A DNA stretch of 44,223 nucleotides from Agathobacter sp. (GTDB lineage Bacteria > Bacillota > Clostridia > Lachnospirales > Lachnospiraceae): NCBI GenBank assembly GCA_017409825.1, contig JAFQRZ010000025.1:1-44223 (forward strand). The letters run 5' to 3'. The stretch's first letter is position 1. The number at the start of each line of letters is the position of its first letter. The notes under the pieces were generated by a model. It did not search any database, was not told where the DNA came from, and saw only the letters and a list, made by a program, of their open reading frames with translations. Shown one piece after another: positions 16,957-34,122 of this stretch. The translations under genes and the position numbers were made by a program.

Positions 16957-17088
16957 ATGAAAAAATATATCGAAGAAAGAGCTGTGGAAGTAGCCAATTA
17001 CATTATCGAGAACAACGCTACCGTAAGACAGGCAGCGAAGCAATTTGGTATCTCTAAGAGTACCGTACATATGGTTGTAACAGTATAG
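16957..17088 (+). pseudogene. spoIIID: spoIIID 5' part, interrupted by the mobile element
   Basis: The frame MKKYIEERAVEVANYIIENN, then ATVRQAAKQFGISKSTVH, is the N-terminal helix-turn-helix half of SpoIIID, the mother-cell regulator acting with sigma-E and sigma-K. After residue 38 it runs into element sequence and adds only MVVTV before a stop, giving 43 aa instead of about 84-93. The missing C-terminal half is found intact at 33982-34122. AGGGG at 16945-16949 is the ribosome-binding site. In the integrated state the product lacks the C-terminal basic region needed for DNA binding. Confidence 0.92.
17061..17078 (+). other. attL junction
   Basis: spoIIID sequence TACCGTA meets the CA core (17068-17069) and then the element arm TATGGTTGT (17070-17078). 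This arm is the exact inverted complement of the arm at the right end. Confidence 0.85.
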
Positions 17089-17140
17089 AGCGATTTGTGT
17101 GGGTGGTGGAATAATAGAAAAATTAAATATAGAATAGGAT

Positions 17141-17184
17141 AAAACCTCTTTAGATATGTTCTTAGATGTATCTAAAGAAGTTTT
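17141..17184. terminator. Bidirectional terminator at left end of element
   Basis: AAAACCTCTTTAGATA (17141-17156) pairs with TATCTAAAGAAGTTTT (17169-17184), giving A/T flanks in both directions. It ends the leftward XRE transcript and would also stop read-through from spoIIID into the element. Confidence 0.75.
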
Positions 17185-17197
17185 GTTTTACATGAAT

Positions 17198-17533
17198 TTA
17201 GTTGTGTTTGTATTTGATAATGTTTTTTAAAAGAGTATAAAGTTCTTCTTGTTCTTCAAGTGGCTGATTAAGAATGAGGTCATAGCATTTTTGAGCAGTA
17301 TTATATTGTGGATTTGTAGTAATGATTTTATTAAATAAATCTTCCAGAGGTAAATCTAAAGCGATGCATATTTTTTCTATGCTTTCGATAGTAGCATTCT
17401 TTTCACCACGTTCAACTTGACCTATATAAGTAGGATGTAAGCCTGCTTTTTCAGAAGTCAGTTCTTGACTATATCCTAATTCTTGTCGTCTTAGACGAAG
17501 TCGTTGTCCGACAATGGTTGTGATTTCGCTCAT
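17198..17533 (-). CDS. XRE-family helix-turn-helix regulator
   Basis: The 111-aa protein has a Cro/CI-type HTH (about 8-65: RLRLRRQELGYSQELTSEKA, then YIGQVERGEKNATIESIEKI) and a short C-terminal helical tail that may dimerise. AGAGGAG lies 8 nt before the ATG. It is transcribed divergently from the acyltransferase operon, and repeated sites in the 212-bp gap are candidate operators. It probably represses itself and the operon. It may also control excision, which cannot be judged here. Confidence 0.88.
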   Translation of the reverse strand: MSEITTIVGQRLRLRRQELGYSQELTSEKAGLHPTYIGQVERGEKNATIESIEKICIALDLPLEDLFNKIITTNPQYNTAQKCYDLILNQPLEEQEELYTLLKNIIKYKHN

Positions 17534-17620
17534 TTTTGTCTGCTCCTCTTAGAATGGTTTGGTTTTGCAAGTGTGGTTTAATAAGTGAATAGATAATGTC
17601 ATTCATATTATGTTAGTTAT

Positions 17621-17723
17621 ATACTACAAATATTATCTATGATAAAAAATAGACTATTGATATTTATTTTGTTTGCTTTTATACTATAAATATTAAAGCG
17701 TATACAATGTATATTTATAGTAT
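17621..17723. promoter_or_regulatory. Three operator-like repeats between XRE and the acyltransferase operon
   Basis: ATACTACAAATATTA (17621-17635) and ATACTATAAATATTA (17681-17695) are direct copies exactly 60 bp apart. ATATTTATAGTAT (17711-17723) is the same motif inverted. Their position between divergent genes suggests XRE binding sites. Confidence 0.6.
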
Positions 17724-17799
17724 TTGCAGAAGATAAATTTCGAAATTGTTAATCTTAAATCGAAAAACGTTTTTGTATTGTGATGGAGATAAAAGAACT

Positions 17800-18816
17800 A
17801 TGAAAAGAGCTAATCAAGAGATTCCAAATTGGATACTTTCAAGTAAGGAAGAAAGCAAATTATCGCTAGAAGAAAAGGAAGCCTATTATGCAAAATTGCA
17901 AGAATTTTGTAGTAACAGAAAATTATGTACGACAACACTAGGAGCATTAACTATAGCACCTAAGTTAAAAGGAATTACAGAAAAAATTGCTAAAAAGGTG
18001 TCCTCAATTTTGGCTGGTGGAGAAATAGAAGTAGTTGCAGATGGACAGGAAAATATTCCAGATGGTGGAGTAATATTTGCAGTAACTCATCAGGGAATTA
18101 TGGATAATTTTATTTGGATACCAGAAAATCCGAGGCATAGTATATTGCTCCATCATGGTGATGTAAATAAACTACTGATATTAGCACAGTTGAATACAGG
18201 TTTAGTTCTAGTAAGCAAAAAGCCAGAAAATGCTAACAGTAGAGTTAATAATAAATTAGATATGATCAAAATTTTATTAAAAGGACATGCAATAACTTGG
18301 TGGCCAGAAGGTGCATGGAATTTATCACCAAGCAAATTACATTTAACTATGAGCTATGGATTTTTGGAGGTGGCACAAAAAGCAGAAGTCCCAGTAATTC
18401 CAATGATTATAGAGTATACATATGATACGACACTATCGAAGGAAAGAATAACAAAGGCTCATATCCGATATGAAAAACCGATTACAGTAAAAATAAATGA
18501 TAATTTAAAAGAAAAGTTACATGAATATCAGGAAGCAATCTCCACTGCTAGGTGGGAAATGATTGAAGAAAAAGGACTATACAAGAGAAAAGAAGTAACT
18601 AATGTGGATTATATAAATTATATGAAAGGTAATTTAGCAACATTAAATCTTGGAAAAGTGAGTTTAGAAGCTGAGAGGAGAGCTTTAAGAGATGCGAATG
18701 ATGAATTTTATATATTCCATCATATTAATGATGTGTCTTGGGATGCGTGGGGTGAATTGCGTCAAACAGAGGAAGTAGAACGATTAAAGCAGATTAATAG
18801 GGTACATGGGATATAG
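17800..18816 (+). CDS. PlsC-like acyltransferase 1 of the element cluster
   Basis: The 338-aa protein has the LPLAT/PlsC catalytic HX4D at His97-Asp102 (THQGIMD) and a second motif WPEGAWN (Pro169-Glu170-Gly171), where ordinary PlsC has FPEGTRS. The family moves acyl chains to lysophosphatidate or related acceptors. No transmembrane helix is obvious. N-terminal (about 1-75) and C-terminal (about 250-338, ending WDAWGELRQTEEVERLKQIN) extensions are shared only with the next gene. The ATG at 17800 is preferred over an upstream ATG at 17746 because it aligns with the paralogue and follows GGAG. Acceptor and donor are unknown. Confidence 0.82.
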   Translation: MKRANQEIPNWILSSKEESKLSLEEKEAYYAKLQEFCSNRKLCTTTLGALTIAPKLKGITEKIAKKVSSILAGGEIEVVADGQENIPDGGVIFAVTHQGIMDNFIWIPENPRHSILLHHGDVNKLLILAQLNTGLVLVSKKPENANSRVNNKLDMIKILLKGHAITWWPEGAWNLSPSKLHLTMSYGFLEVAQKAEVPVIPMIIEYTYDTTLSKERITKAHIRYEKPITVKINDNLKEKLHEYQEAISTARWEMIEEKGLYKRKEVTNVDYINYMKGNLATLNLGKVSLEAERRALRDANDEFYIFHHINDVSWDAWGELRQTEEVERLKQINRVHGI

Positions 18817-18826
18817 TGAGGATAAA

Positions 18827-19843
18827 ATGAAAAAAGAGGATATAACGGATAAAAATTTTAAAGTACTATCACTTAAAGAAGAACAAAAACTTTCCTTAGA
18901 GGAAAAAAGTATCTATTATGAAAATTTAAGAAAATACATTTTAAAAAGAAAACTTACCAACACAACAATTGGAGCAACAACGATTGCTCCAAAATGTAAG
19001 AAGTTTGCTACAAAGATAGCCTCATCATTAGTAAAAGTGTTTTCAAATAAAAATGCTGCCTGGGTTTGTGAAGGCCAGAGTAATATTCCAGCAGGAGCAG
19101 TTATTTTTGCACATACACACCAAGGAGTATTAGATAATTTTGTATGGATGCCAGAGGTGGAGAAACATTGTTTAATATTACATGGACAAGGCGTTAGCAA
19201 ATTATTACTGCTAAGTCAGACTATTGATGGGCTGATTTTAGTAAAAAAAGGAGATAAAAAGAATAATAATAATGCAAAATTAGATATGATAAAGGTTCTT
19301 TTAGAAGGACATTCAGTAACATATTTTCCAGAATCTACATGGAACTTATCTCCTAATAAATTACATTTGCCATTAAGTTTTGGAGTTATTGACACAGCAA
19401 AAAAGGCAAAAGTTCCTATAGTACCAGTTGTTCATGAATTTACATATGACACTTCGACAGAAAAAGAAAATGTAACAAAAATTCATAGCAGATTTGGCAA
19501 GCCAATATATGTAGATGATAATGATGATTTGTTGGAAAAATTACATGAGTATGAAGAAAGTATATCTACAATGAGATATGAAATGATAGAAGCTAAAGGT
19601 TTGTTTAAGAGAAGTGAATTAACAAATTTTGATTATATCAATTATTTGAAAGGAAATTATAAAAATATAAAGTTTGCAGGTTTAGATATAAACGATGAGC
19701 GTAAGTATATTTACACAGCAGACAGTGAGTTTTATCAGTTCCATCATGTTAATGATTTACCATGGGATGCATGGGGTGAATTACTTCAAACAGAGGAAGT
19801 GGAGCGATTAAAGAGGATTAATAGAGTACATGGTTATGTGTAG
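18827..19843 (+). CDS. PlsC-like acyltransferase 2, paralogue of the preceding gene
   Basis: The 338-aa protein has exactly the length of acyltransferase 1 and aligns throughout, including the C-terminal FHHVNDLPWDAWGELLQTEE segment. HX4D is His98-Asp103 (THQGVLD). The second motif reads FPESTWN, so the usual glycine is serine. This may alter phosphate binding. The start at 18827 follows GTGAGGA, 10 nt after the previous stop, and matches the paralogue's N-terminus. The pair is a recent tandem duplication relative to the other three acyltransferases, and may form a heterodimer or use different substrates. Confidence 0.82.
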   Translation: MKKEDITDKNFKVLSLKEEQKLSLEEKSIYYENLRKYILKRKLTNTTIGATTIAPKCKKFATKIASSLVKVFSNKNAAWVCEGQSNIPAGAVIFAHTHQGVLDNFVWMPEVEKHCLILHGQGVSKLLLLSQTIDGLILVKKGDKKNNNNAKLDMIKVLLEGHSVTYFPESTWNLSPNKLHLPLSFGVIDTAKKAKVPIVPVVHEFTYDTSTEKENVTKIHSRFGKPIYVDDNDDLLEKLHEYEESISTMRYEMIEAKGLFKRSELTNFDYINYLKGNYKNIKFAGLDINDERKYIYTADSEFYQFHHVNDLPWDAWGELLQTEEVERLKRINRVHGYV

Positions 19844-19857
19844 AAGAGGTAATTCAA

Positions 19858-20748
19858 ATGAGAAGTGCGTTAATTGATAACTGGACAATAGAAAGAATAA
19901 TTGATAATTTCTCGAATAATACAAATATGATTTCAAAAGAAGTAGAGACACTTATGATAGCAATGGTTCTTTGGGAAGATGTATATTATTTCGATAATGG
20001 ATACTCAAGTTGGTGGAGATATATAGTTGAAAATATGGAAGAATATAGTTTCCTAAAACAACTAAAACCAGTTGATGCAACTTGTGATTCTACATTTTTG
20101 AAAGATGCCAAAGGTGATTATCTTAGGCTTTACTCTCAGCAATATACTTCTGTAGTTGCGCAAGGTGCATTAGAATATCTTTATTTTGCTAATGAAAAGA
20201 AACTAAGTTATATGCCATTGGGGAATAGAGCAACATTTATTCAAGAAAATGATTTATATAGACATTTCAATATTTTTTATAATCGAATTGATGCAATTGA
20301 ACGTGTAGACGTAGAAATATTAAGATATTATGAAGAACTAAATCAAATTCTAACAAAAACAAAAATGGTATTTCATCCAAATTGTTTATTAGATTATATA
20401 AGTAAATCGGCAGATTCAGTAACAGATATGTTTAAAAATGTCAATGAATTAAGGAACCTAAAAATGGTAAAAGATTTTAGAAGGTGGGTAAGCGATTTAG
20501 AAGATGACATAAAAGAGGGAAGAACCATAAAAATAATGCAATATAAAAGAGATTTAGAATCTATTGAAAAAACATATCAGCAAATGTCGTTTGATGTATC
20601 GTTAGGAATACCAGCTGGAATAGGTATTAATTTATCAGTTCCATTTGAAAAAATTAATCAACCAAATTTGGTTTTCCCGTTTTTTTTATATGGAGAGTCT
20701 ATAGGAGCGTCAAGTAATTGTTTGCACAAGAAAAAACTCCGCACATAG
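19858..20748 (+). CDS. Unknown 296-aa protein in the acyltransferase operon
   Basis: I do not recognise this family. The protein is soluble-looking and rich in aromatic residues, with WEDVYYFDNGYSSWWRYIVEN near 39-59 and a mostly helical middle. Near 245-275 it has a Gly/Pro segment (SLGIPAGIGINLSVPF). No signal peptide is evident. AGAGGT precedes the ATG, and the gene begins 14 nt after acyltransferase 2, so it is very probably cotranscribed. By position it could be a substrate-binding, carrier or sensor partner of the acyltransferases, but nothing in the sequence proves this. Confidence 0.7.
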   Translation: MRSALIDNWTIERIIDNFSNNTNMISKEVETLMIAMVLWEDVYYFDNGYSSWWRYIVENMEEYSFLKQLKPVDATCDSTFLKDAKGDYLRLYSQQYTSVVAQGALEYLYFANEKKLSYMPLGNRATFIQENDLYRHFNIFYNRIDAIERVDVEILRYYEELNQILTKTKMVFHPNCLLDYISKSADSVTDMFKNVNELRNLKMVKDFRRWVSDLEDDIKEGRTIKIMQYKRDLESIEKTYQQMSFDVSLGIPAGIGINLSVPFEKINQPNLVFPFFLYGESIGASSNCLHKKKLRT

Positions 20749-20819
20749 TTGATTGCAGAACATTTCAAAAGTAAATTGAGAATATTTTAAAGTTATAACG
20801 ATAAATAGAAGGAAATTAA

Positions 20820-21695
20820 ATGTATAACAAATTCTTAGAAAAATATTTAGATTATGCCCCAGAGAGAGTTATTTCAAAAAAGGGCATTATTATAAGAAAA
20901 ATAATAAGTCCGGTGTTAAGATTTGTAGTCCCTTTCGTTACCCCGAATTCCAAATTAACAGTAGTGAGAAGGGCCAAACTACCAAAACAACCAGTTATTT
21001 TTGCAGCAACACATGGGTTTAGAGAGGATGTTGAGCATACGGTTGTTATGGCTGGTAGACAAGCCTATATGTTAAATGGTGTTCCTAAACAGTTGTTTCA
21101 TTCATTTGATGGAATCACCGCATGGCTCGCGGGGATGGTAATTATAGACAGAACAGACAAAGAAAGTAGGGCTTCATCTATTGATAAGTTAGTAAGAGTT
21201 TTAAAACTTGGTTCTAGCGTAATAATGTATCCGGAAGGTACATGGAATAAATCGCCTAATGAACTAGTGAGTGGACTCTTTCCTGGAATATATGATGTGG
21301 CACAGAAAAGTGGTGCTCTGGTTGCGCCCATTGCAACTTATCGTAATGGGAAGAAGGCATACGGCATAACGGAGGAAGCATTTGATATTTGCCAATATAG
21401 CAGAGAAGAGGGAATACAGATACTTCGTGACAAAATGGCAACTATGCAATATGAGTTAATTGAGAAATATGGAGTGGCTAACAGAGATGATTTTCCGTAT
21501 GGTGAAGTGGCGGATAAATATTGGAATGATTTCATTGATGGATTGATGGCAGAGGTTGAGTTTTATGATTATGAAGTAGAGCTTCATACTAAATATCGTC
21601 CGAAAGGAATTACAAGTCCGAAGGATGCATTTGCATTTATGGAAGAACTAGTGCCGAATAAGAATAATTTGTTTTTGTTCAAAAAGCATTTTTAG
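20820..21695 (+). CDS. PlsC-like acyltransferase 3
   Basis: The 291-aa protein has HX4D at His65-Asp70 (THGFRED) and YPEGTWN at 138-144. It also has a hydrophobic, basic N-terminal segment (KGIIIRKIISPVLRFVVPFV, 21-40) that could lie on the membrane. The later signature MATMQYELIEKYG is echoed in the other family members. AGAAGGAAATTAA precedes the ATG. It probably acylates a lyso-lipid or lipid-like alcohol. The substrate cannot be inferred. It is separated by 71 bp from the unknown gene, with no terminator seen. Confidence 0.82.
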   Translation: MYNKFLEKYLDYAPERVISKKGIIIRKIISPVLRFVVPFVTPNSKLTVVRRAKLPKQPVIFAATHGFREDVEHTVVMAGRQAYMLNGVPKQLFHSFDGITAWLAGMVIIDRTDKESRASSIDKLVRVLKLGSSVIMYPEGTWNKSPNELVSGLFPGIYDVAQKSGALVAPIATYRNGKKAYGITEEAFDICQYSREEGIQILRDKMATMQYELIEKYGVANRDDFPYGEVADKYWNDFIDGLMAEVEFYDYEVELHTKYRPKGITSPKDAFAFMEELVPNKNNLFLFKKHF

Positions 21696-21747
21696 AAGTA
21701 AACACAAGTAAAAATGGAATGTGTATGGTTTTACAGGGGGATAAGGT

Positions 21748-22287
21748 GTGAAAGTTATTATTACATTAATAATTGTACTGTTTGGAATTAGTTTTCTTAT
21801 TGCAATTCTATATGCTTTGTATATGGGGTCGAAAAGAGAACAGTATCCAAAAGTTGATTTTACTAGATTTGAGAAAGAAAATAATAATGTTAAAGAAGTT
21901 GAGACGCTTATCAATAAAGCAATTAAAGGGGTAAATGGTTGGATGTGGCTAGCAACTGCTTTTATGGCACTACACTATTTTATGAATTTTTGGTCTATTG
22001 TTTTTATGTTGTTAAATATTATTGTAGTTGCATATCAAGTAGAGAATAATAAAGAAATTTTGTTGTTTCTTGTATCAGGTTCGTTGCTGTTTACGTGTAT
22101 AGATTTATGGATAAATACAAAAGAGAAAAGCAATATGTTTCATAGACACTGGTTTAAGACCTCTGCGAAAACAAAAGAATATATAGTAGCGTTTGCAAAG
22201 GCGGAAACTTTTGATGAAATATGTAAATTAGCGAAGAATTATAATGAATTGATTTATGAGGAAAATAAGAATGTAAAGTTTCTTTAA
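21748..22287 (+). CDS. Small membrane protein, GTG start
   Basis: The 179-aa protein has an N-terminal hydrophobic segment (VIITLIIVLFGISFLIAILY) and two or three more around 65-125 (WLATAFMALHYFMNFWSIVF, IVVAYQV, LFLVSGSLLFTCIDLW). A short helical cytoplasmic tail ends in YNELIYEENKNVKFL. The GTG at 21748 follows AGGGGG at 21735-21740. It resembles small uncharacterised integral membrane proteins and could tether the operon's enzymes. I recognise no family. Confidence 0.7.
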   Translation: MKVIITLIIVLFGISFLIAILYALYMGSKREQYPKVDFTRFEKENNNVKEVETLINKAIKGVNGWMWLATAFMALHYFMNFWSIVFMLLNIIVVAYQVENNKEILLFLVSGSLLFTCIDLWINTKEKSNMFHRHWFKTSAKTKEYIVAFAKAETFDEICKLAKNYNELIYEENKNVKFL

Positions 22288-22335
22288 AGGGGGTGCTATA
22301 TTAAATAGATGTAACTTATAGGTGGTGAAGGAAAA

Positions 22336-23040
22336 ATGATTTTCAAAAAATTACATGAGTTATTATTCCCTTTTGTGAAAAATATAAGTAAAAAATACAT
22401 ACATGGTGAGTTGATAATTGAGAACAACTTGTCTTATAAAGGACCAGTGATATATGCAGTAAACCATACGAATGTATCAGATACGCCTGTTGTATTTCAT
22501 ACATTAAATAAACAAGCCTACATATTAGCCGGAACCAAGTCGCAAAAATTGATTGACAGCATTGGGTTTAATCTGAATGGTGTCGTATGGGTGAATAGGC
22601 ATTCTGCTAAGAGTAGGAAAAAATCAACAGACAAATTATATAAAATATTAAGTTCTGCTGGTAGTGTGATGTGGTTTCCGGAGGGGACATGGAACCTGTC
22701 GGATAATCTACTAATGTTACCAATGAGATATGGAATTGTAAAAATGGCCGCAAAAGTAAATGTACCCATTGTTCCCATATCAATTTATTATGCTGGAATT
22801 AAAATATATTCAACAGTGGGCGATCCTATAACAATAGGAATTAATGAAGATGCAATAACTGCCATCACACAACTTCGCGATATTATGGCAACTATGAAAT
22901 ATGAGCAAATGGAAACTTGTGGTGTATATAAGAGATGTGATGTTGATAAGGAAGATTTTGATGCACTAATAAAGGCGTCATTAGATGAATATCCGACATT
23001 TAACCGTGAGTATGAGGAAAAGTGTGTATTTAAACATTAA
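22336..23040 (+). CDS. PlsC-like acyltransferase 4
   Basis: The 234-aa protein is the most compact of the set and close to normal PlsC length. HX4D is His44-Asp49 (NHTNVSD), and FPEGTWN lies at 114-120. NLNGVVWVNRHSAKSRKKS corresponds to the family block between the two motifs. MATMKYEQMETCGVYKR matches the C-terminal signature of the other cluster members. GAAGG precedes the ATG. Because it lacks extra domains, it probably shows the minimal catalytic unit of the group. Confidence 0.85.
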   Translation: MIFKKLHELLFPFVKNISKKYIHGELIIENNLSYKGPVIYAVNHTNVSDTPVVFHTLNKQAYILAGTKSQKLIDSIGFNLNGVVWVNRHSAKSRKKSTDKLYKILSSAGSVMWFPEGTWNLSDNLLMLPMRYGIVKMAAKVNVPIVPISIYYAGIKIYSTVGDPITIGINEDAITAITQLRDIMATMKYEQMETCGVYKRCDVDKEDFDALIKASLDEYPTFNREYEEKCVFKH

Positions 23041-23078
23041 TAAAGATAAAGGATTTATTTTAGGAGAAAGAACATATT

Positions 23079-24056
23079 ATGGGGACGATAAAATATATAG
23101 TAAAGGATATAGTAAATAGAACTAGCTATAGTGTAAGTTTTCTTCTAGACAATAGTGTTTCCAAAACTATTTCAAAGAAAGGCATATTTTTCCGTAAAAT
23201 ATTTGCAGGTCTTTTGAGAGCAATTTATTTAACGCAAACCGACTATAAACTTGTTATCCATAAAAGAGAAAAGATAACAAGAACTAAGAAAGGGAAAATA
23301 TTTGCAATAAATCATAGACAGGCAGATGATATAGTTCTTGGTGCAAATGCAGTAGGGGAAAGTGCCTATATTGTATTTGGAAATAAATATTTGGCACTTG
23401 AGACGACCAATGGTATTGGGTTGTGGGCATATGGAATGATTCTAATGGAAAGAGACAATGACATTAGTAGAAAAGCCACCTATGAGAAGATGAAATATGT
23501 GATTGAACATGGTGGAAACATTATAATTTATCCTGAGGGATATTGGAATCTTGCAGATGACGGACAGGCTGATGAACACCATTTAGCAGATGGACATAAC
23601 TCAGAAAATTGGTTAATACAAGATATCAATATTGGAATTCTGCGTTTAGCAAAAGAGACACGTTGTGAGATAGTGCCAACAATATTGCATTATGATGAGG
23701 TCGGTGCTAAACGTTGTTATATACATAGAGGTAAAGGGGTTCGAGTTGAAGAACAGGATGACATATTTGTAAAAAAAGATGAACTCGTACATGTTATGAC
23801 CAATATGTATTGGGGATTGATGGAAAAATACTCTCAATATTGTAGGGTAGATTTAGAAAAAGATGGGAAAAGTCTTAAACAAAATTGGAAAGAATTGAAA
23901 GAACAGTTGCGAAGAGCTTGCGATATTGAACGAATTGGTTATCAATTAGATTTGACAGATGAGAAAAGGATAGGAAAGGCGAAAGTTGTGCACCTAGTTG
24001 TTACTCCAGATGAGGTGTTTCATTCAACTAAGGAGGAGAGGGGGAATATAGGATGA
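23079..24056 (+). CDS. PlsC-like acyltransferase 5
   Basis: The 325-aa protein has HX4D at His79-Asp84 (NHRQADD) and YPEGYWN at 151-157. An Asp/His-rich insertion follows (DGQADEHHLADGHNSENW), absent from the others, then NIGILRLAKETRCEIVPT. The hydrophobic segment FFRKIFAGLLRAIYL (37-51) may contact membrane. It is the most diverged member. Its stop overlaps the start of the hexapeptide transferase by 4 bp (ATGA), so the two are translationally coupled and probably act in one pathway. Confidence 0.82.
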   Translation: MGTIKYIVKDIVNRTSYSVSFLLDNSVSKTISKKGIFFRKIFAGLLRAIYLTQTDYKLVIHKREKITRTKKGKIFAINHRQADDIVLGANAVGESAYIVFGNKYLALETTNGIGLWAYGMILMERDNDISRKATYEKMKYVIEHGGNIIIYPEGYWNLADDGQADEHHLADGHNSENWLIQDINIGILRLAKETRCEIVPTILHYDEVGAKRCYIHRGKGVRVEEQDDIFVKKDELVHVMTNMYWGLMEKYSQYCRVDLEKDGKSLKQNWKELKEQLRRACDIERIGYQLDLTDEKRIGKAKVVHLVVTPDEVFHSTKEERGNIG

Positions 24057-24634
24057 AAGGAACATATTTCCAAGCATCTGGTAAATCTGAGTTTCGAAAA
24101 ATGTTAAAATCGGAATGGATTCAATGGTCTTTAAATAGAACTCCATTATGGAATATTCCAAAAAGAAATTGGTTATTACGAAAGTTGTTTGGAACAATGG
24201 ATGGTAATCCGTATTTGGTTCAAATTCCATTACATGTTAACTATGGATGTAACATATATGTTGGAAAGAATTTTTTTGCCAATTATAATTGCATTATGAT
24301 GGATTATGCACAAATAACGATTGGAGATAATGTTTGGCTTGGTCCTAATGTGTCCTTGCTGACGGCGAATCATCCACTTGAGCCAAAGAAGCGTCAAGTT
24401 TTTCATACAGATGACAGTTTTCATCCAGAGAAAAAGGGAAATTGGGAGATAATTGCACCGATTGAAATTGGTGATGATGTTTGGATTGGTGCAGGTGTAA
24501 CAGTTTTACCAGGAGTTAGTATTGGTGCAGGAACAACAATAGGAGCAGGAAGTGTGGTAACACATGATGTTCCACCCAATGTACTTGCATGTGGGAATCC
24601 TTGTAGAGTAATTCGTTCTATTGATATATCATAA
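24053..24634 (+). CDS. Hexapeptide-repeat O-acetyltransferase (maltose/galactoside acetyltransferase type)
   Basis: The 193-aa left-handed beta-helix protein has repeats NIYVGKNFFANYNCIMMD, ITIGDNVWLGPNVSLLTANH (catalytic His), IEIGDDVWIGAGVTVLPG and ISIGAGTTIGAGSVV. The tail VLACGNPCRVIR is typical of the Maa/LacA/NodL group. These enzymes acetylate sugar hydroxyls with acetyl-CoA. Overlap with acyltransferase 5 suggests the final product carries both long-chain acyl and acetyl groups, perhaps on a sugar. That product is inference. Confidence 0.88.
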   Translation: MKGTYFQASGKSEFRKMLKSEWIQWSLNRTPLWNIPKRNWLLRKLFGTMDGNPYLVQIPLHVNYGCNIYVGKNFFANYNCIMMDYAQITIGDNVWLGPNVSLLTANHPLEPKKRQVFHTDDSFHPEKKGNWEIIAPIEIGDDVWIGAGVTVLPGVSIGAGTTIGAGSVVTHDVPPNVLACGNPCRVIRSIDIS

Positions 24635-26043: not shown

Positions 26044-26142
26044 AAACTTAAGCAAGAAGATGAAATTCTTAGGTCTATATTAAGAACTATTCTCATAGTA
26101 TTAAAAAGAAAGACAAGCAAGAGAAGGAGGTGGAGATTCCGC

Positions 26143-26367: not shown

Positions 26368-26383
26368 AGATGCCTTGCTTTTT
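26358..26383 (+). terminator. Terminator overlapping the end of the 74-aa gene
   Basis: AGCAAGG (26358-26364) pairs with CCTTGCT (26373-26379), followed by TTTT. A near copy (AAGCAAGG/CCTTGCTT) follows the membrane-protein genes at 27535. Confidence 0.65.
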
Positions 26384-26451
26384 GCATTATGAAACACTAA
26401 ATACATTTTGAGAAAATGCCGATACTATTGAAAAGAATTTTGGAGGTAAAA

Positions 26452-27342
26452 ATGTATAAAGTTTTTTGGCTATGTTTTCATTCAATTATGTGCGTAATAA
26501 TGGCAGTTGTATGGATGTTTACAGAAATTGCAGATGGTGGAAAAGTGGTTGTTGAGGATTTCAAAAATAAAGATAAGCGCTTTAATGGAGAAACAATTGT
26601 ATTAATGGGCATCTTGGGAGTATTTGTTATTGTGTTTTATATATTTGTTTATTATTCGCTTATGGAGAATACAATATTCTCAAAAGGTTTTGTTTTAATA
26701 TACTTTCTAGTATTAGGCTACATAGCAATTAGACAGATTGTTAAAATGCTTTTTGTTCATGAAAAAAGAGCTTTTTCGATTTCTGATATTCGAGGGTTTG
26801 CGTTTACTTATTTATTTTGGTGGATAATTATATCAATAATGAGCTCTCCACAAGCGGAAGTAAACCTATTAGATAAGAGCACATCTGATTATGGGGAAAT
26901 TATAAAGGTAGTGCTATTGTGGTTGTGTAATTATTTTAATATTCTCTTGGCATTGGGCGGCGTGTATATCCTACTTTATTATTTGGGTGGAATTAGAAAT
27001 ATTCTGAAAAAAATATGTGGGTGCATTAAGAAAGCGAAGCCAAAACATAAAATGGGGATACTTGAGTGGAGTAAAACGGGCAAAAAGTTTTCCGGTTTGA
27101 AATGTTTTAGGATATGGAATGAAAATAAAAAAAGAATTATTTCGAAAATAATTATAACAATTCCATTATTCTTATTAGACGTATGTAATATATTTTTGTT
27201 TTTTGTTGTAGTTTTTGTTAAAGCATTGGTAAATGGAATTATTGATGAAATACTAGAACCTATACGAGGACTATACAGATTAGTAAAAGAAGTGTGGAAT
27301 AGGTATGAAAATACTGAGGGATGTATGTGTTTGCACAAATAG
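26452..27342 (+). CDS. Multi-pass membrane protein of unknown function
   Basis: The 296-aa protein has about five or six hydrophobic segments: about 3-20, 49-70, 78-98, 122-137, 159-182 and, after a basic loop rich in Lys, 241-266. A cytoplasmic, basic loop (about 185-235, KPKHKMGILEWSKTGKKFSG) separates the first group from the last. The start at 26452 follows TTGGAGGT. An upstream ATG at 26416 has no ribosome-binding site. I recognise no family. A membrane effector for neighbouring defence genes is possible but unproven. Confidence 0.6.
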   Translation: MYKVFWLCFHSIMCVIMAVVWMFTEIADGGKVVVEDFKNKDKRFNGETIVLMGILGVFVIVFYIFVYYSLMENTIFSKGFVLIYFLVLGYIAIRQIVKMLFVHEKRAFSISDIRGFAFTYLFWWIIISIMSSPQAEVNLLDKSTSDYGEIIKVVLLWLCNYFNILLALGGVYILLYYLGGIRNILKKICGCIKKAKPKHKMGILEWSKTGKKFSGLKCFRIWNENKKRIISKIIITIPLFLLDVCNIFLFFVVVFVKALVNGIIDEILEPIRGLYRLVKEVWNRYENTEGCMCLHK

Positions 27343-27506: not shown

Positions 27507-27534
27507 TTAATGAAATAAAATACAAAAAGATTGG

Positions 27535-27563
27535 AAGCAAGGTATATTGATGCCTTGCTTTTT
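27535..27563 (+). terminator. Terminator before the AbiL-like pair
   Basis: AAGCAAGG (27535-27542) pairs with CCTTGCTT (27553-27560), followed by TTT. Confidence 0.7.
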
Positions 27564-27688
27564 CTATGAAATAGTAATAGAACTTAATGAAATGCTAATC
27601 ACGAGATGATATATGAGAAAAAATCTCATATATATGTTGCAAAATAAGAAAAATGGAATATAATAAAGATAGAATGGAGGTAAAAGAT

Positions 27689-28912
27689 ATGTTATGTCAA
27701 TTTACTGTTAAAAATTACAAAAGTATAAGAGATGAAGTAACGTTTGATATGCAGGCGGCAGCAATCTCAGAGCATGAAGATAGAATAATTAAAGACATGG
27801 ATGGAGAAATGTATTTACCAGTATCTTCTATTTATGGTCCTAATGGTGGAGGTAAATCTAATGTTTTAGCAGCGTTACACACATTAGTTGCAAAGATATT
27901 ACGTCCATTGTATGCGACAGAAGATAATGAAGAGAGAGCATTTCTTCAGAAGAGAATTATTGTGGAACCATTTGCCTTTTCTGATAGCAAGAATGAACCA
28001 ACGGAATTTGAATTATTCTTCCGTACAGATTCAGCAGAGTACAGATATATCTTGCATGTAAAACGTGATGTAGTTATGTATGAAAGCTTGGATAGGGTTA
28101 AACTTGAAACAGGAAGACGTTCAGGCTTATTTACAAGAGATGAAAAAGGTGTTGAATTAAAGGGTGCATTTGCTAAATTGAAGGTTAGTGAAGATTTATC
28201 TAAGACTCTTACATTACTTTCTTATTTAGGTATTGCCTATAAGGGAAATGCAGTGGTTAAAGATGTACTCAACTGGTTTGAATATGGTGTTGATTTCTTG
28301 AATTATGGTAATCCAATTCAAGAACTTAGAATGGCTATTTCTACATCAGAAGATGTAAAGCATTTGATGTTGGATATGATTCAGGAAATGGATTTAGACA
28401 TCGTTGATTTTAGGGTAGAAGAAAAAGAGAACGACAGAATAGAAGTGTATACAAAGCATCTTGTAGATGATGTGGAAACAGAGCTTAGTTTATCAGATGA
28501 ATCAAGTGGAACAAAGAAATTATTTGGCCTGCTTCCATTTATAGCAGCAAGTTTACTTGATGGAACTGTACTCGTAATCGACGAATTGGATGCGAAGATT
28601 CATCCGGTGTTGTTGCGTCATATCATAATGATGTTTAACGATATGGAAATCAATAAGCACAAAGCTCAGCTAATCTTTACATCTCATGATTTATCAACTA
28701 TGAACAGTGAAGTGTTCCGTAGAGATGAAATCTGGTTTGTGGCAAAAGGGAATGCACAGAATTCTAAGCTGTATTCACTTGTGGAGTTCAAGAATGAAAA
28801 GGGTGAGTCTGTTAGAAAAGATGCTAAATTTGATAAGCAGTATCTTGAAGGTAAGTATGGTGCTGATCCATACCTCAGAAGAATTATAGATTGGGGGAAA
28901 GTCAATGCCTAA
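27689..28912 (+). CDS. AAA-family (OLD/RloA-like) ATPase, AbiL-type first component
   Basis: The 407-aa protein begins MLCQFTVKNYKSIRDEVTF, the usual start of AAA_15/AAA_21 ATPases. Walker A is GPNGGGKSN (50-58), Walker B LVIDELD with Asp298/Glu299, and a switch His333 in FTSHD. Residues SLSDESSGTKKLF form the ABC-like signature. The start at 27689 follows TGGAGG. The next gene overlaps by 8 bp and encodes RloB. ATPase plus RloB pairs are the architecture of the AbiL abortive-infection system of lactococci. Phage defence by this pair is inferred from family and context. Confidence 0.85.
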   Translation: MLCQFTVKNYKSIRDEVTFDMQAAAISEHEDRIIKDMDGEMYLPVSSIYGPNGGGKSNVLAALHTLVAKILRPLYATEDNEERAFLQKRIIVEPFAFSDSKNEPTEFELFFRTDSAEYRYILHVKRDVVMYESLDRVKLETGRRSGLFTRDEKGVELKGAFAKLKVSEDLSKTLTLLSYLGIAYKGNAVVKDVLNWFEYGVDFLNYGNPIQELRMAISTSEDVKHLMLDMIQEMDLDIVDFRVEEKENDRIEVYTKHLVDDVETELSLSDESSGTKKLFGLLPFIAASLLDGTVLVIDELDAKIHPVLLRHIIMMFNDMEINKHKAQLIFTSHDLSTMNSEVFRRDEIWFVAKGNAQNSKLYSLVEFKNEKGESVRKDAKFDKQYLEGKYGADPYLRRIIDWGKVNA

Positions 28913-29624
28913 AAAAGCCGGAATGGAGAAGTGGAAGAAAAAACGTCGCCAAGAATACTTGGAGATGAAGCAATACAGATATTATATCTTCTGCGAAGGA
29001 CAGCAGACTGAACCTTTATACTTTGCTGCATTCAAAAAGCTGATAGAGGAAAATCCTGTTTATAAGGATATGGTACTGATTGAGATCGAACCGTGTCAGG
29101 CTGAAACCATGCGAGTTATTGGTATGGCAGAGGAATATGTAAAGAAGAACAAAATCAAAAAGGGGCAAATCTGGTGTGTCTATGATAAAGATAGTTTTCC
29201 ACCAGAACGCTTCAATGGTGTGGTAGAGCGTGCGGAGAGTTTGAATAAAGAAAATCCGGAATTGCAATATCATACTGCATGGAGTAATGAGTGCATAGAG
29301 TTTTGGTTTTTACTTCATTTTGCATATTACACTGCCAACAATCATAGGGCAGAGTATATCACATTTTTAAATGACAAGTTCAAGGAGCTTGGAATTGGAA
29401 AGTATCAGAAAAATATGCAGGACATCTTTGGAATTCTTTTAGAGCATGGAAATCCGAAATTGGCGATTCGTTATGCAAAGAGAATTATAAAGGATGGAGC
29501 AGGTAAGACACCAACGGAGATTGCACCGGGAACAAAGGTGTATGAGTTGGTAGAGGAACTGGCGAAGTATTTGCCGGAGGAGTTTAAACATAAGTTTAGA
29601 GATAATGTGAAAAATTACTTATAG
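28905..29624 (+). CDS. RloB-like protein, AbiL-type second component
   Basis: The 239-aa protein has a basic N-terminus, then CEGQQTEPLYF (30-40), VYDKDSF with Asp94/Asp96, and SNECIEFWFLLHF (127-139). These are the conserved blocks of RloB, which resembles TOPRIM-type nucleases by its acidic residues. The start codon lies inside the ATPase gene (8-bp overlap), so the two are translationally coupled. It is the likely effector nuclease controlled by the upstream ATPase. Confidence 0.85.
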   Translation: MPKKAGMEKWKKKRRQEYLEMKQYRYYIFCEGQQTEPLYFAAFKKLIEENPVYKDMVLIEIEPCQAETMRVIGMAEEYVKKNKIKKGQIWCVYDKDSFPPERFNGVVERAESLNKENPELQYHTAWSNECIEFWFLLHFAYYTANNHRAEYITFLNDKFKELGIGKYQKNMQDIFGILLEHGNPKLAIRYAKRIIKDGAGKTPTEIAPGTKVYELVEELAKYLPEEFKHKFRDNVKNYL

Positions 29625-29683
29625 TTTTGACGATTTCAAATAGATGCATATTATGGTTTCAATTACGAAGGAGGCGAATCAAT

Positions 29684-32311
29684 ATGGGTGATTATAAAGA
29701 TACGATTACTTGGAATAAAATATATGGAAATACTACAGATAATAAAGAAGAATGTGATTTTTTAAGGGTTGAATATGAGAAGTTTAGAGATAATGCTAGA
29801 TTATTGGCCGGTGAGATTGCATCAATTTTGCCGGAATACACGGTGCATGATATTACACATATAGATGCATTATGGGATATGACAGACATATTTCTTCCTA
29901 GAGACTATTCCTTGTCACCAATTGAATGTTTTGTTTTAGGTGGGGCATTTATTTTACATGATTTAGGCATGTTGCTTGCAGCATATCCAGAAGGTCGAAA
30001 AGGTATCCAAAAGCAAGAAATTTGGAAAGATACAGTTGCAAATTTATGTAAACAGAGAGGGCTACCTTATAACTTTGAAGAATTAGATAACATAGATAAA
30101 GATGTAGATAAGATTGCTACTGAAAAAACCTTAAGGCTGTTACATGGTCAAAAAGCAAAAGAATTGGCAATAGTTTCATGGAAAGATAGTAATGGTAAGG
30201 ATATATATTTGATTGATGACAAGAAGTTAAGAGATGCTTATGGCACGATAATCGGGAAAATAGCTCAAAGTCATTGGTTCTATTGTGAAGAGTTGCCTCA
30301 AGAATTTCCGACTGTTCTAGGAGCACTTTCTATATTTCCGGAAACATGGACTGTTGATCCATTAAAATTGGCGTGTATTCTTAGAATAGCTGACGCTATG
30401 CATATTGATGATAGAAGAGCTCCGTCAATGTTAAAAGCAGTAAGAGAAATTAACAGAGAATCGGAATTACATTGGATATTTCAAGAAAAACTTTATAAAC
30501 CAAGAACCGAAAATAATAGAGTTGTATATACCTCTAAATCTGCATTCGGCTTATCAGAGATAGATGCTTGGTGGCTATGTTATGACACGTTAAGAATGAT
30601 TGATACAGAATTAAAGAATGTTGATTCGCTTTTGTTTGAACAGCGACGAGAGGGCTTTGGAGTCATTAGCGTATACGGAATTGATAGTTTGGAACAAATT
30701 CAAAAATTTATAGCGGTTGATGGTTGGAAGCCGGTAGATACATGTATTAGAGTTAATAATGTTGCAAAATTAGTTAATACCTTGGGTGGAGTGCAATTAT
30801 ATGGAGATAATAACTGGGTACCACTTAGAGAACTAATACAAAATGCGGCAGATGCAATAAGAGCAAGAAGATGTATAGATGAAGAGCCAGATGATTATGG
30901 TGATATAAACTTAAGCTGGGGAGAAGAAGACGGAAAGGAATTTGTCCAGATAGAAGATAATGGAATAGGAATGTCTCCAAATGTAATGGTTAATGTATTA
31001 TTAGATTTCGGACAATCATTTTGGAGCACGCCTCAGATGCATAACGAATTTCCTGGATTAGAACAGAAATCGTTTAAATCTACAGGAAAATTTGGAATAG
31101 GATTTTTCTCTGTGTTTATGTGGGGGGAAAACGTAAAAGTAATTAGTAATCGATATGATAAAGCCAGAGATAATACAATGGTATTGGAGTTTGTAAATGG
31201 GGTAAATAGTAGACCAATATTACGAAAAGCAAATGCTGAGGAAGTAATAAGAAATGGTGGAACTCGTATTAAAATCTATTTATCTAAAAAAAGTATTAGG
31301 GCGATATTCGAACCTGATTTTTATTCAACGATGGATGTAGAAGAGATGCTTGCCAAAATGTGCTTTTCGTTAGATTGTAATTTATATATCAATAATGATA
31401 ATAAAAAGTTACTCGTGAAAGCAAATGATTGGTTGTCTATGGGAACGAATGAGTTTTTGCAAAGGTTGATAGGTCAAAAAGGTATAGAACAATTAGTCAA
31501 AGAAAAGTCTGATGTTTATCAATTGTTGTGTAATAATATAACGATTATAAAAGAGGAAGATGAGACCATTGTTGGTAGAGCATGTCTTTTATTAGATGAG
31601 AAGTTGCAAAGAAGAAGTGCTATTATGGGAACGGTTACGGTTGATGGATTCGGAACAACAGAATTAAGAGGAATAATTGGCGTTCTAAAAGGTAATACCC
31701 AAAAGGCATCTAGAGATATTGCAATACCAATTTTGTCGCAGATGGCTTTGGACAGATGGATAGAAGAACAAGCAAAACTAATGGTCTCAACAAATTTGTC
31801 TGATGAAGAACAAATAGAGGTTGCATCATTTGCATGTGCTCTTTCTTCGAAAATAACAGAATTAAAAATTGCAAGGTGGAAAGACACATATGTAAATTAT
31901 AGTCAAATAGTTGAAATTGTAAGAAAACAGAAATATGAGCAATATTATTTGGTACATGATGCAGCCGTTCATATTTGGGAGCGTGACGAGAAAAAGCAAC
32001 TTGAATTAGCGGACAATGTATTTGCATGTGCAATGGGATGCCCTGGAATTTTACAAACGGGAAATGTGCATGCGTATGTAGAGTGGCCAAGCTTTAGAAC
32101 AGAAAGAGCGAGAAAATTTGGTTGTGCTGTAGTAGAAAAGCAGGTAGCGGAGGCTATCGCTGAAGCTTGTAATAGCTCACTTGATTCCATGCTAGAAGCA
32201 ATACAATTTTCAGATGATGACACGGAGTATAGTGGAATTGTTGGTCAATCTGATGATAACAATATTGAGATGCGTGTTGATATTATGAATATAAATAGTA
32301 AAGAGGGATAA
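29684..32311 (+). CDS. HD-domain and GHKL (Hsp90-like) ATPase protein
   Basis: The 875-aa protein joins two catalytic modules. Residues about 50-250 look like an HD phosphohydrolase: His55 or His59, His92-Asp93 in LHDLG, and a later Asp in ILRIADAMHIDD. Residues about 375-600 form a GHKL ATPase with N-box LRELIQNAAD, G1 IEDNGIGM (Asp425) and G2 GKFGIGFFSVF. The C-terminal 270 residues are unassigned. AAGGAGG supports the ATG at 29684. A possible upstream TTG/ATG extension is not supported. It lies 59 bp after rloB on the same strand. A nucleotide- or phage-sensing defence role is inference. Confidence 0.75.
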   Translation: MGDYKDTITWNKIYGNTTDNKEECDFLRVEYEKFRDNARLLAGEIASILPEYTVHDITHIDALWDMTDIFLPRDYSLSPIECFVLGGAFILHDLGMLLAAYPEGRKGIQKQEIWKDTVANLCKQRGLPYNFEELDNIDKDVDKIATEKTLRLLHGQKAKELAIVSWKDSNGKDIYLIDDKKLRDAYGTIIGKIAQSHWFYCEELPQEFPTVLGALSIFPETWTVDPLKLACILRIADAMHIDDRRAPSMLKAVREINRESELHWIFQEKLYKPRTENNRVVYTSKSAFGLSEIDAWWLCYDTLRMIDTELKNVDSLLFEQRREGFGVISVYGIDSLEQIQKFIAVDGWKPVDTCIRVNNVAKLVNTLGGVQLYGDNNWVPLRELIQNAADAIRARRCIDEEPDDYGDINLSWGEEDGKEFVQIEDNGIGMSPNVMVNVLLDFGQSFWSTPQMHNEFPGLEQKSFKSTGKFGIGFFSVFMWGENVKVISNRYDKARDNTMVLEFVNGVNSRPILRKANAEEVIRNGGTRIKIYLSKKSIRAIFEPDFYSTMDVEEMLAKMCFSLDCNLYINNDNKKLLVKANDWLSMGTNEFLQRLIGQKGIEQLVKEKSDVYQLLCNNITIIKEEDETIVGRACLLLDEKLQRRSAIMGTVTVDGFGTTELRGIIGVLKGNTQKASRDIAIPILSQMALDRWIEEQAKLMVSTNLSDEEQIEVASFACALSSKITELKIARWKDTYVNYSQIVEIVRKQKYEQYYLVHDAAVHIWERDEKKQLELADNVFACAMGCPGILQTGNVHAYVEWPSFRTERARKFGCAVVEKQVAEAIAEACNSSLDSMLEAIQFSDDDTEYSGIVGQSDDNNIEMRVDIMNINSKEG

Positions 32312-32350
32312 AGAGTGAAAGTATAGATTTAGATTCTTTTCAGAAGTCCT

Positions 32351-32383
32351 AAAAGGCGAGAGAGAAATCTCTTGCCTTTTTCT
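32351..32383 (+). terminator. Terminator after the HD-GHKL gene
   Basis: AAAAGGCGAGAG (32351-32362) pairs with CTCTTGCCTTTT (32369-32380) with one G-U pair, followed by TCT. Confidence 0.8.
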
Positions 32384-32404
32384 ATTCTATACAATAAAAT
32401 AATA

Positions 32405-32425
32405 GTTGTAACAGAACGCAACAAC
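32405..32425 (+). promoter_or_regulatory. att-arm-like repeat upstream of the recombinase gene
   Basis: GTTGTAACAG (32405-32414) is identical to attL positions 17074-17083. Together with ACAAC at 32421-32425 it forms a GTTGT/ACAAC dyad about 20 bp before the recombinase start. It could be a recombinase half-site used for autoregulation. Confidence 0.4.
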
Positions 32426-32447
32426 TCTAACAGAAAGGTTGATAAAT

Positions 32448-33983
32448 ATGAACATAGCAGCATACTGCCGAGTTTCCACAGATAAAGAAGACCAGCTCAA
32501 CAGTTTAGAGACTCAAAAAGAGTTTTTCTTAGAATATACCAAGCGAACAGGGGACAACCTTATTAAATTATATGCAGACGAAGGTATTTCCGGAACCAAA
32601 ATCAAGAACCGTAAAGAATTCCAGCGTATGCTTGCAGATGCTGAGAAAGGCTTATTTGATATGGTTGTGGTAAAGGATATTTCTCGTTTTGCCAGAAATA
32701 CAGTTGATTTATTACAGAGTGTCCGTAAGCTGAAAGCACTTGGTATCGAGACGCAGTTCCTTACTGCCAATATGACAAGTATGGGTAATTCGGAATTCGT
32801 ATTGACTATCTTCGGGGCATTGGCGCAGGAAGAAAGTGCGAACACATCTAAGCGTATCAAATTCGGTAAGAAGATGAATGCAGAAAAAGGTCGAGTTCCA
32901 AACATTGTTTACGGATACGATAAAACCATCGGTGATTATTTCAATCTATCCATCAATGAAGAGGAAGCAAAGGTTATTCGTCAGATGTACAAGTGGTACA
33001 CAGAAGAAGGCTTTGGTGGTGCAAAGATTGCAAACATGCTTAATGAACGTGGTGTGAAAACCAAGAGAGGAAATAATTGGAGTCAGAATTCCGTATGTCG
33101 TATTCTAACTAACGAGATATACACCGGAAAGATTATCAATGGCAAAGAGGAAGTAGCAGATTTTTTAACCGGACAGAGAAAAGAAAAAGATGAATCGGAA
33201 TGGTTAGTAACGATTCGCCCGGAACTTCGTATCATTGATGATGAAATCTTTGATAAGGTACAAGAGATTTTGAAAGGTCGACACGATTCGTTTAAGATGA
33301 CACATGAACGTCAGAGCAACAAGCATTTATTCTCTACATTGATTAAGTGTAAGGATTGTGGTTGGTCTTTCCGTAGAACGGTTCGCCAGTACAAGAATAC
33401 TTATGTCCGTTGGGTATGCTCAGGTCACAATGGTCGTGGTGCAGATAGTTGCCCAAATGCAATTACAGTGGATGAAGAAGAATTGATTCAGGTATTGCAG
33501 GAGTACTTCCAAGATGTGCTTAGCAAAAAGAAAAAAGTAATCGATTATGTAATCAAAGAATTCCAACGTGCCTACAAAGCGAAAGATGAGAATGTAGAGT
33601 ATGAAAAAGAATTAACAACAGAGCTAAACAGACTTCGCAGATCACGTGAGAAATATATGGATATGTACACTGATGATTTGATTTCCAGAGAGGAATTGAA
33701 TGAGAAAATTGGTGGCATGAGAAAAGAGATTGATAGATTAGAAAATGAACTGAAAATGGTATCGTATAATCTAACAAAGGGTGAGCAGTTGGAAGCAATT
33801 CTAAACAGCACTTTTAAAGAGATGGAAGATATTACAGATGTTCATGAAATGACAAATACACAGTTAAAACGTCTTATCAATAAAATCGAAGTGGACAAGG
33901 ATGGTAACGTTGATATTTACCTGCGCATTATTGGTGACTTAGGATTAGATGAAACCGTTCTAATTGACGACAACCATACATAA
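32448..33983 (+). CDS. Large serine recombinase of the spoIIID element
   Basis: The 511-aa protein has an N-terminal resolvase domain with catalytic Ser10 (AAYCRVSTDKEDQ), the Arg-rich VVVKDISRFARN, and ADEGISGT. A Recombinase domain (about 150-270), a zinc ribbon (IKCKDCGW then VCSGHNGRGADSCPN) and a coiled coil (about 385-455) follow. This is the architecture of phage-type integrases such as SpoIVCA, which excises skin. The ATG at 32448 follows AAAGG. Its TAA stop spans attR, with the last two bases belonging to spoIIID. In the excised circle the frame would continue 14 codons (YGCNSIERFVWVVE) before a stop. Confidence 0.93.
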   Translation: MNIAAYCRVSTDKEDQLNSLETQKEFFLEYTKRTGDNLIKLYADEGISGTKIKNRKEFQRMLADAEKGLFDMVVVKDISRFARNTVDLLQSVRKLKALGIETQFLTANMTSMGNSEFVLTIFGALAQEESANTSKRIKFGKKMNAEKGRVPNIVYGYDKTIGDYFNLSINEEEAKVIRQMYKWYTEEGFGGAKIANMLNERGVKTKRGNNWSQNSVCRILTNEIYTGKIINGKEEVADFLTGQRKEKDESEWLVTIRPELRIIDDEIFDKVQEILKGRHDSFKMTHERQSNKHLFSTLIKCKDCGWSFRRTVRQYKNTYVRWVCSGHNGRGADSCPNAITVDEEELIQVLQEYFQDVLSKKKKVIDYVIKEFQRAYKAKDENVEYEKELTTELNRLRRSREKYMDMYTDDLISREELNEKIGGMRKEIDRLENELKMVSYNLTKGEQLEAILNSTFKEMEDITDVHEMTNTQLKRLINKIEVDKDGNVDIYLRIIGDLGLDETVLIDDNHT

Positions 33984-33988
33984 GGACT
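33970..33988 (+). other. attR junction
   Basis: Element arm ACAACCATA (33970-33978), core CA (33979-33980), then spoIIID sequence TAAGGACT. With attL this reconstructs attP as ACAACCATA-CA-TATGGTTGT and attB as GTACCGTA-CA-TAAGGACTG. Confidence 0.85.
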
Positions 33989-34122
33989 GCGCAGAACGAT
34001 TGGCGCAGGTCAATCCAAGTCTTGCGAACGAGGTAAGAAAGGTACTGGATGTAAACAAAGCAGAGCGACACATCCGCGGAGGATTAGCGACGAAGGAAAA
34101 ATATTTGGGACATGGCGAGTAA
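33982..34122 (+). pseudogene. spoIIID: spoIIID 3' part, detached from its start by the mobile element
   Basis: In frame with the 5' part, this encodes KDCAERLAQVNPSLANEVRK followed by VLDVNKAERHIRGGLATKEK and YLGHGE, then TAA. The NKAERHIRGGxATKxKY block is the hallmark C-terminus of SpoIIID. No start codon or ribosome-binding site precedes it here. Both halves lack any other frameshift or stop, which suggests selection for restoration rather than decay. A terminator follows at 34139-34165. Confidence 0.93.

Follow-up and report, generated by a model that had tools for sequence, protein, structure and literature searches.

In the Agathobacter sp. contig JAFQRZ010000025.1 (assembly GCA_017409825.1; the whole stretch of 44,223 nucleotides was analyzed and is referred to as the window), the mother-cell regulator gene spoIIID is interrupted after codon 38 by a 16,911-bp element (positions 17071-33981) that encodes its own site-specific recombinase. 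Precise removal of the element restores the spoIIID frame, and the empty site is present in relatives. We consider the element a probable skin-like developmental switch (probability about 0.78), which would have to leave spoIIID before spores are completed. The sequence basis of this reading comprises the site, its arms and core, the in-frame empty site, recurrence in other genomes, and the sporulation genes kept by the hosts. An earlier note on the window had described a 16.9-kb element splitting spoIIID, and both the halves and their spacing were borne out.

The split gene and its attachment site

16901..16929, + strand: spoIIID promoter of sigma-E type, ATA-N16-CATAGAATG (promoter search upstream)
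16957..17070, + strand: spoIIID 5' part, codons 1-38, ending in the helix-turn-helix (..SKSTVH) (Pfam match, joining)
17067..17114, + strand: frame of the would-be last 15 recombinase codons in the excised circle (TYGCNSIERFVWVVE, stop) (deduced from phage attP)
17071..17100, + strand: element arm of attL (ATGGTTGTAACAGTATAGAGCG..), half of attP (junction comparison by eye)
32439..33983, + strand: large serine recombinase (Resolvase, Recombinase, zinc ribbon), ATG at 32448, TAA stop spanning the junction (family scan)
33953..33981, + strand: element arm of attR (AACCGTTCTAATTGACGACAACCATACAT), core dinucleotide CA at 33979-33980 (junction comparison by eye)
33982..34122, + strand: spoIIID 3' part, codon 39 to stop (KDCAERL..) (joining, congener alignment)

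The left half of spoIIID begins with the ATG at 16957 and ends with the CAT at 17070, within the helix-turn-helix; it is matched by Pfam SpoIIID (E 5.1e-18). The right half resumes with codon 39 at 33982, and its stop ends at 34122. As the earlier note had claimed, both halves are intact and join in frame, giving 84 codons with no internal stop. A second intact copy, which according to that note would speak against a switch, was looked for and is absent: a six-frame search of the whole genome (2.80 Mb, 96.9% complete; the window is its contig C18) matched the two halves only. Comparison with relatives, also proposed there, located uninterrupted spoIIID in the closest congeners, G403 (98% identical protein) and G420, and in 10/10 fetched congeners with intact spoIIID (L172-L181) the window flanks, once joined, align at the nucleotide level with no break at the junction. 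Among 60 genomes of the genus, the window's included, 52 have a spoIIID match; ten of these carry either two half-matches (G000, G406, G415, G416, G444 and G454) or the 5' piece alone (G438, G442, G421 and G418), and for these ten the junction was read in G000.

The recombinase has the full domain set of a large serine recombinase, and its gene ends in the right junction, in line with the right-edge position noted earlier. By eye, the element arms of window-type junctions are inverted repeats around a non-palindromic CA in TACATA, which supports the proposed 2-bp core. The same arrangement is found in the natural, unbroken attP of three viral contigs (L163-L165), which reads ACTCCTGTA-CA-TACAGGAGT plus outer arms. 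A pattern search of viral contigs for attP returned 0 matches; the pattern was too strict, as the palindrome in L163 differs from it.

The recombinase stop codon lies inside the junction, at the same place, in 44 of 58 loci, its T coming from the core and its AA from spoIIID codon 39. In the natural phage attP, the recombinase frame runs on to ..TYRSNKIERLIWRIK. Reading the attL arm in this frame gives tails resembling TYGxNxIERxxWxIE: among 38 left arms, the tail has 15 residues in 13 and 19 residues in four; the other 21, which include second-type arms (described below) and one assembly break, have other tail lengths. Mismatches per codon position past the arm were 0.41, 0.27 and 0.50 (14 sequences with the 15-residue tail), as coding DNA would show. 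Because the stop sits in the junction while the frame in attP and attL continues in a coding-like manner, the recombinase probably carries the tail only while the element is free, and integration would replace its C-terminal tail. Note that the attL arm also holds TGTAACAGT (window 17076-17084), a match to the SpoIIID box of C. difficile, KRTAACARK (PMC5025042; this and the other papers cited here were available as excerpts). The fit could be a chance product of the recombinase arm, or possibly reflects feedback of SpoIIID on attP.

It could also be supposed that the parts are expressed separately, a short protein from the 5' part (38 codons plus 5) having a role of its own and excision being irrelevant. 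The 5' part does keep its start and a sigma-E-type promoter, but the gene is split inside the helix-turn-helix, and elements differ in which residues, and how many, they add after codon 38. Judged from the 5' part and the place of the split, we find this explanation scarcely credible.

Recurrence of the insertion and sporulation genes of the hosts

To survey the family, 397 genomes were drawn, the window's included, of which 240 match SpoIIID; weak or double matches were followed up. Half-genes only were found in at least 28 of the 240 (the window's genome and 27 others). This count is a lower bound: the follow-up left out G183 as well as G024 and G345, which have three matches each. By their arms, 23 of the 28 are of the window's type (window included) and four of a second type, and G353, with a half only and a junction that was not understood, was entered as unresolved. 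Arms of window type are divergent in G055 and G269, whose recombinases are 49% and 46% identical to the window's. Where both ends lie on one contig, element size ranges from 3.5 kb (G055) to 75 kb (G106). Joined window-type halves were open in 26/26 cases, with 82-93 codons and no stop; 11 of 92 right-half entries (some loci entered twice, second-type loci included) showed no junction pattern and were left unjoined. Chance is excluded because the same codon is hit in many genomes, and an assembly artefact was ruled out, since the same type of junction occurs across many independent assemblies.

The second arm type is present in G076, G132, G171 and G347, the last assigned from its arms alone. 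In G171, G076 and G132 it is accompanied by three tandem recombinases, ~25% identical to that of the window, and its core seems to lie in spoIIID codon 40. The arms thus place two distant recombinase types at nearly the same spoIIID codon. A small ORF with the promoter described below was not found in common between the two triple-recombinase elements compared.

In a draw at the level of the order, 213 of 295 genomes matched and 45 were searched again. Two half-matches occurred in families f1, f5, f11, f16, f17, f19 and f23, as judged from the matches with junctions unread. Several candidates were rejected. Weak single matches in genera g344 and g362 resembled half genes and were full-length divergent copies; G044 was likewise full-length and divergent, and was dropped from the counts together with G115, where the assembly breaks off at the end of a contig. 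In G672 two pieces overlap at one place with no insertion (uncounted), and an apparent full-length second copy in G393 was produced by the right half running on into the arm by chance. Other arrangements were also seen: spoIIID matches lie on opposite strands, in inversion-like fashion, in G662 (contig C1, 2 kb apart, one of them nearly full length) and G516 (contig C11, 23 kb apart), and in G496 (contig C1) the halves are 120 kb apart, which may point to an unusually large element or a prophage. According to the excerpt of PMC12888040, two strains of Anaerostipes hadrus that differ in sporulation outcome also differ in spoIIID, among other genes; this difference could be an insertion of the window's kind.

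Sporulation genes are kept by genomes with a split spoIIID. SpoIVA is present in 28/28 and SpoIIGA in 27/28 (missing from G170, which is 79% complete). For comparison, 12 genomes were picked by hand from 20 listed among the 157 lacking a spoIIID match; SpoIVA was found in 2/12 and SpoIIGA in 2/12 (G012, G051). The window's host keeps Spo0A, SpoIIGA with an adjoining sigma-E-like gene, SpoIVA and SpoVAD, as well as an unsplit sigma-K-like frame of 218 codons that falls below the model cut-off, and a SipL-like gene lies in the window itself (268-1806). The decayed sporulation genes that would, in the earlier note's terms, argue against a switch were thus not encountered. G292, a 99% complete congener, has no match for spoIIID, SpoIVA or SpoIIGA, and sporulation has probably been lost in it within the genus. 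The species of the window presumably needs spoIIID for sporulation.

The partner gene, lateral movement and the proposed switch

26075..26103, + strand: sigma-E-type promoter of the small ORF, CTA-N16-CATAGTATTA, weak by strict matrix (promoter search)
26143..26367, + strand: 74-amino-acid (aa) ORF, TTG start, ribosome-binding site AAGGAGGTGG, the recombinase's conserved partner and candidate recombination directionality factor (ORF comparison)

When the ORFs of 21 elements or parts were compared all against all, two genes proved common to most window-type elements: the recombinase and a 74-aa ORF, which has matches in 13 other elements and lies directly upstream of the recombinase in several loci. 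It also has weak matches (E 1e-4 and 0.009) ahead of two distant recombinases whose loci lack spoIIID (L166, L167). We treat its product as a candidate recombination directionality factor. Upstream of the small ORF, [AC]TA-N16-CATA was found in 31 of 36 non-redundant relatives (of 40). Dinucleotide shuffles gave a mean of 0.45 and a maximum of 3 in 300, and other spacings gave at most 3. The same pattern stands upstream of 1/70 recombinase genes and 25/888 other long ORFs; ATA-N16-CATA is found in 30/50 spoIIID upstream regions. The canonical ATA -35 is present in 7 of the 36 small-ORF promoters. Alternatives involving sigma-G and sigma-K were weighed by eye against their consensus sequences. 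A sigma-E-type promoter on a small gene linked to the recombinase speaks for excision under developmental control. A coding reading was also considered for the block that precedes the small ORF, and rejected, since by eye stops and shifts break its frame in several relatives while its bases are conserved. Shortly after the -10 box, TGGACAA is conserved (14/36; shuffles 0.46; for example, L052 6100-6180); it fits the SpoIIID consensus WWRRACAR (21/36; shuffles 5).

An alignment of eleven recombinases was scanned against 84,980 species genomes, giving at least 574 relatives, of which the best 80 were kept. Among these 80, a spoIIID half adjoins the recombinase in 50 of the 57 loci at ≥47% identity, the exceptions being L085, L108, L121, L135, L136, L145 and L147, and in 0 of the 23 loci below 47%; the right half lies at most 200 bases from the recombinase in 44 of the 57 (L110, one of the 57, was taken as the same contig as G106). 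Record titles of the relatives name Lachnospiraceae, Oscillospiraceae, Blautia glucerasea, Schaedlerella arabinosiphila and Pseudoflavonifractor, and two relatives are metagenome-assembled genomes labelled Selenomonadales and Pelosinus. In S. arabinosiphila DSM 106076 (L092) both spoIIID halves were seen, and in B. glucerasea MSK.21.93 (L086) the right half. The recombinase is under strong purifying selection (window versus L055, dN 0.007 and dS 0.72; L118 versus L119, dN 0.007 and dS 0.64), and the spoIIID right halves of the window and L055 differ with a dN of 0.33, far above that of the recombinase.

Several observations weigh against a switch maintained for sporulation, and some of them concern the history of the insertions. 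Recombinase and spoIIID dN are weakly coupled (r 0.30, 1653 pairs), and recombinase dS is below that of flanking host genes in every one of the nine pairs for which comparable genes were available (not the case for a tenth pair). The module therefore moves horizontally, and most insertions look laterally acquired after their hosts split. The pair nearest to vertical descent is L124/L128 (recombinase dS 0.57 versus 0.67-1.37 for the flank), which may be one vertical case. When nucleotide identity was compared, 8 of 14 pairs had recombinases closer to each other than their flanks, and six gave no flank match; this comparison is biased by constraint on the recombinase. With recombinases younger than their flanks, selection on the split halves is not demonstrated, and since most insertions look younger than the divergence of their hosts, the openness of the halves could in part be due to their youth and not to selection acting on the split gene. 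Furthermore, searches of Pfam, NCBIfam and PHROGs gave the 74-aa ORF no family, so that its directionality role rests on linkage and the promoter; of the 36 small-ORF promoters, a matrix trained on spoIIID promoters passes only 8 (p<0.05; window's own p 0.40), the low scores arising because the -35 of the small ORF is mostly CTA and not ATA. At least five split-site elements are in phage-like DNA, which would need the site for integration alone. Finally, we infer excision itself from genome sequence alone. Separately, the elements of L048 and L086 share the 6.5 kb upstream of the recombinase at 96.8%, although their host flanks (1.4 and 9 kb available) cannot be aligned with each other. This makes a recent transfer likely.

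The youth of most insertions relative to host divergence would suit a dead insertion that made the host asporogenous and left the halves as fresh remnants, and G292 shows that sporulation genes can vanish in this genus. Against this, the recombinase and both halves are open, the att arms are present, and the host's Spo0A, SpoIIGA, SpoIVA and SpoVAD frames are open as well. We judge such a dead insertion very improbable.

Phage-like relatives bear on another explanation. The viral contigs L163-L165 (from IMG/VR, 50-119 kb) are identical over the 4.7 kb compared and carry a 73% identical recombinase with the small ORF; spoIIID is absent from the 17.5 kb examined, and neighbouring ORFs resemble, by eye, an anaerobic ribonucleotide reductase and a PhoH-like protein. 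They appear to belong to a temperate phage that shares this attachment site. A terminase match (2.6e-14) is present in the 75-kb element of G106, and a Mob_Pre gene in L045. The 6.4-kb phage record MT838016.1 (L171) contains a 57% identical recombinase followed by a spoIIID right half (2113-3772) and looks like the edge of an integrated element. A review, as excerpted, names spoIIID among phage-encoded sporulation genes (PMC12713726); among these calls there could be halves of the host gene from attachment sites, and spoIIID pieces on phage contigs deserve a check.

These relatives, and the movement of recombinases between hosts, are what would be expected if spoIIID were merely a convenient conserved attachment site, with excision serving transfer or phage induction and carriers blocked in sporulation until cured. 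Under such a life style the sigma-E-type promoter of the small ORF (31/36) would be useless. Nor does it fit that sporulation genes are kept in 28/28 split genomes, when 10 of the 12 picked genomes without spoIIID (G292 included) lack SpoIVA. We hold this explanation to be unlikely, while giving it more weight than the other two.

The developmental switch would operate as follows. The large serine recombinase would recognize attB in the helix-turn-helix codons of spoIIID and recombine it with the near-palindromic attP, so that vegetative cells carry split spoIIID. In the mother cell, recombinase and factor would excise the circle and rejoin spoIIID, whose product would act with sigma-E and later with sigma-K. 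The forespore would retain the element, which would thus be inherited.

Cargo, significance and known systems

17198..17533, - strand: XRE-type repressor-like protein, cargo or element regulator (family scan)
17746..24634, + strand: cargo of five PlsC-type acyltransferase genes, two family-less genes (19858-20748, 21748-22287) and one hexapeptide transferase (family scan)
25030..26043, + strand: cargo, coiled-coil-like protein with weak matches only (family scan)
26416..27342, + strand: cargo, membrane protein by eye, no family match (family scan)
27653..29624, + strand: cargo, AAA ATPase and RloB pair for phage defence (best PADLOC models AbiLi / AbiLii)
29627..32311, + strand: cargo, protein with HD-CE domain and HSP90-type ATPase (family scan)

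In a Pfam scan of the 15 element proteins besides the recombinase, with shorter ORFs outside the scan, no phage structural or packaging families and no relaxase or conjugation-transfer families were found, and several cargo proteins matched no family. The best PADLOC models for the AAA/RloB pair were AbiLi (5.4e-85) and AbiLii (8.6e-31). Five different PlsC-type acyltransferase genes are clustered on this one mobile element (17746-24056).

The target of the element is the regulator acting between sigma-E and sigma-K. The system offers a workable way to test why spore-forming bacteria put up with, or exploit, DNA elements within their developmental genes, a mobile phage-defence cargo linked to sporulation in gut commensals, and a new set of recombinase, attB and candidate directionality factor. 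Note also that surveys may score species with a split gene as spoIIID-negative. As a tentative proposal, to which we give somewhat less than even odds, spoIIID may be a widespread DNA switch of gut Clostridia, in which a horizontally moving module of recombinase and small protein, serving phages and defence-carrying elements, repeatedly makes the gene mother-cell-only. The module would time itself: its recombinase gene extends over attP, and integration, by swapping a conserved 15-19-residue tail for a stop borrowed from spoIIID and so giving two forms of the enzyme, one chromosomal and one in the excised circle, could make excision one-way.

Intervening elements have been described in sigK, spsM, spoVFB, spoVR, gerE and yabG (PMC5595907, PMC10747680, PMC4191935, PMC6957869, as excerpted). 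The earlier note knew of none at spoIIID, and among the papers listed from open-licence full texts there was likewise none; subscription journals and preprints lay mostly, and supplements entirely, outside that search, and recombinase surveys may list the site without comment.

In the C. difficile skin element in sigK, the recombinase CD1231 is driven by sigma-A and the directionality factor CD1234 by sigma-E, and CD1234 requires SpoIIID in addition to sigma-E (PMC5025042). The window's element resembles it as a serine-recombinase element in a mother-cell regulator that would be rejoined precisely, and in having a sigma-E-type promoter on the putative small partner and not on the recombinase, a likeness of layout. 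The target here is spoIIID, one step earlier, and a SpoIIID-dependent factor would be impossible before excision. Since the switch itself makes SpoIIID, its trigger could not need SpoIIID, unlike that of C. difficile skin.

SP-beta, in spsM of B. subtilis, uses SprA and SprB, and the sprB promoter has a perfect sigma-E/K -10 and an imperfect -35 (PMC4191935, PMC6957869). It is similar in being phage-related, in pairing a recombinase with a small factor, and in the good -10 and poor -35 also seen in the small-ORF promoter here. It differs in that spsM is a spore polysaccharide gene and not a regulator, and in that SP-beta is a full phage, which the window's element is not. The gin element in gerE of B. 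cereus is free of phage genes, lies in a very short gene for a mother-cell transcription factor and has three recombinases (PMC5595907). By description, it shares with the window's element the lack of phage genes and the short mother-cell regulator, and its three recombinases recall the second spoIIID type; the gene and the organism are different. Further intervening elements in sporulation genes are vfbin in spoVFB and vrin in spoVR (PMC4191935), and yin in yabG of C. botulinum, called unique to one strain (PMC10747680); their targets differ from spoIIID.

Of most interest here are the target gene spoIIID, the breadth of its use, the sharing of one codon region by two types of recombinase, and the proposed tail swap. 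For the last of these, a parallel is the integration-dependent immunity of mycobacteriophage BPs, in which attP reportedly lies in coding sequence and integration alters the C terminus of the protein, a repressor, by means of a tyrosine integrase. A C terminus would be changed by integration in both systems, whereas the enzyme here is a serine recombinase and its site lies in a host developmental gene.

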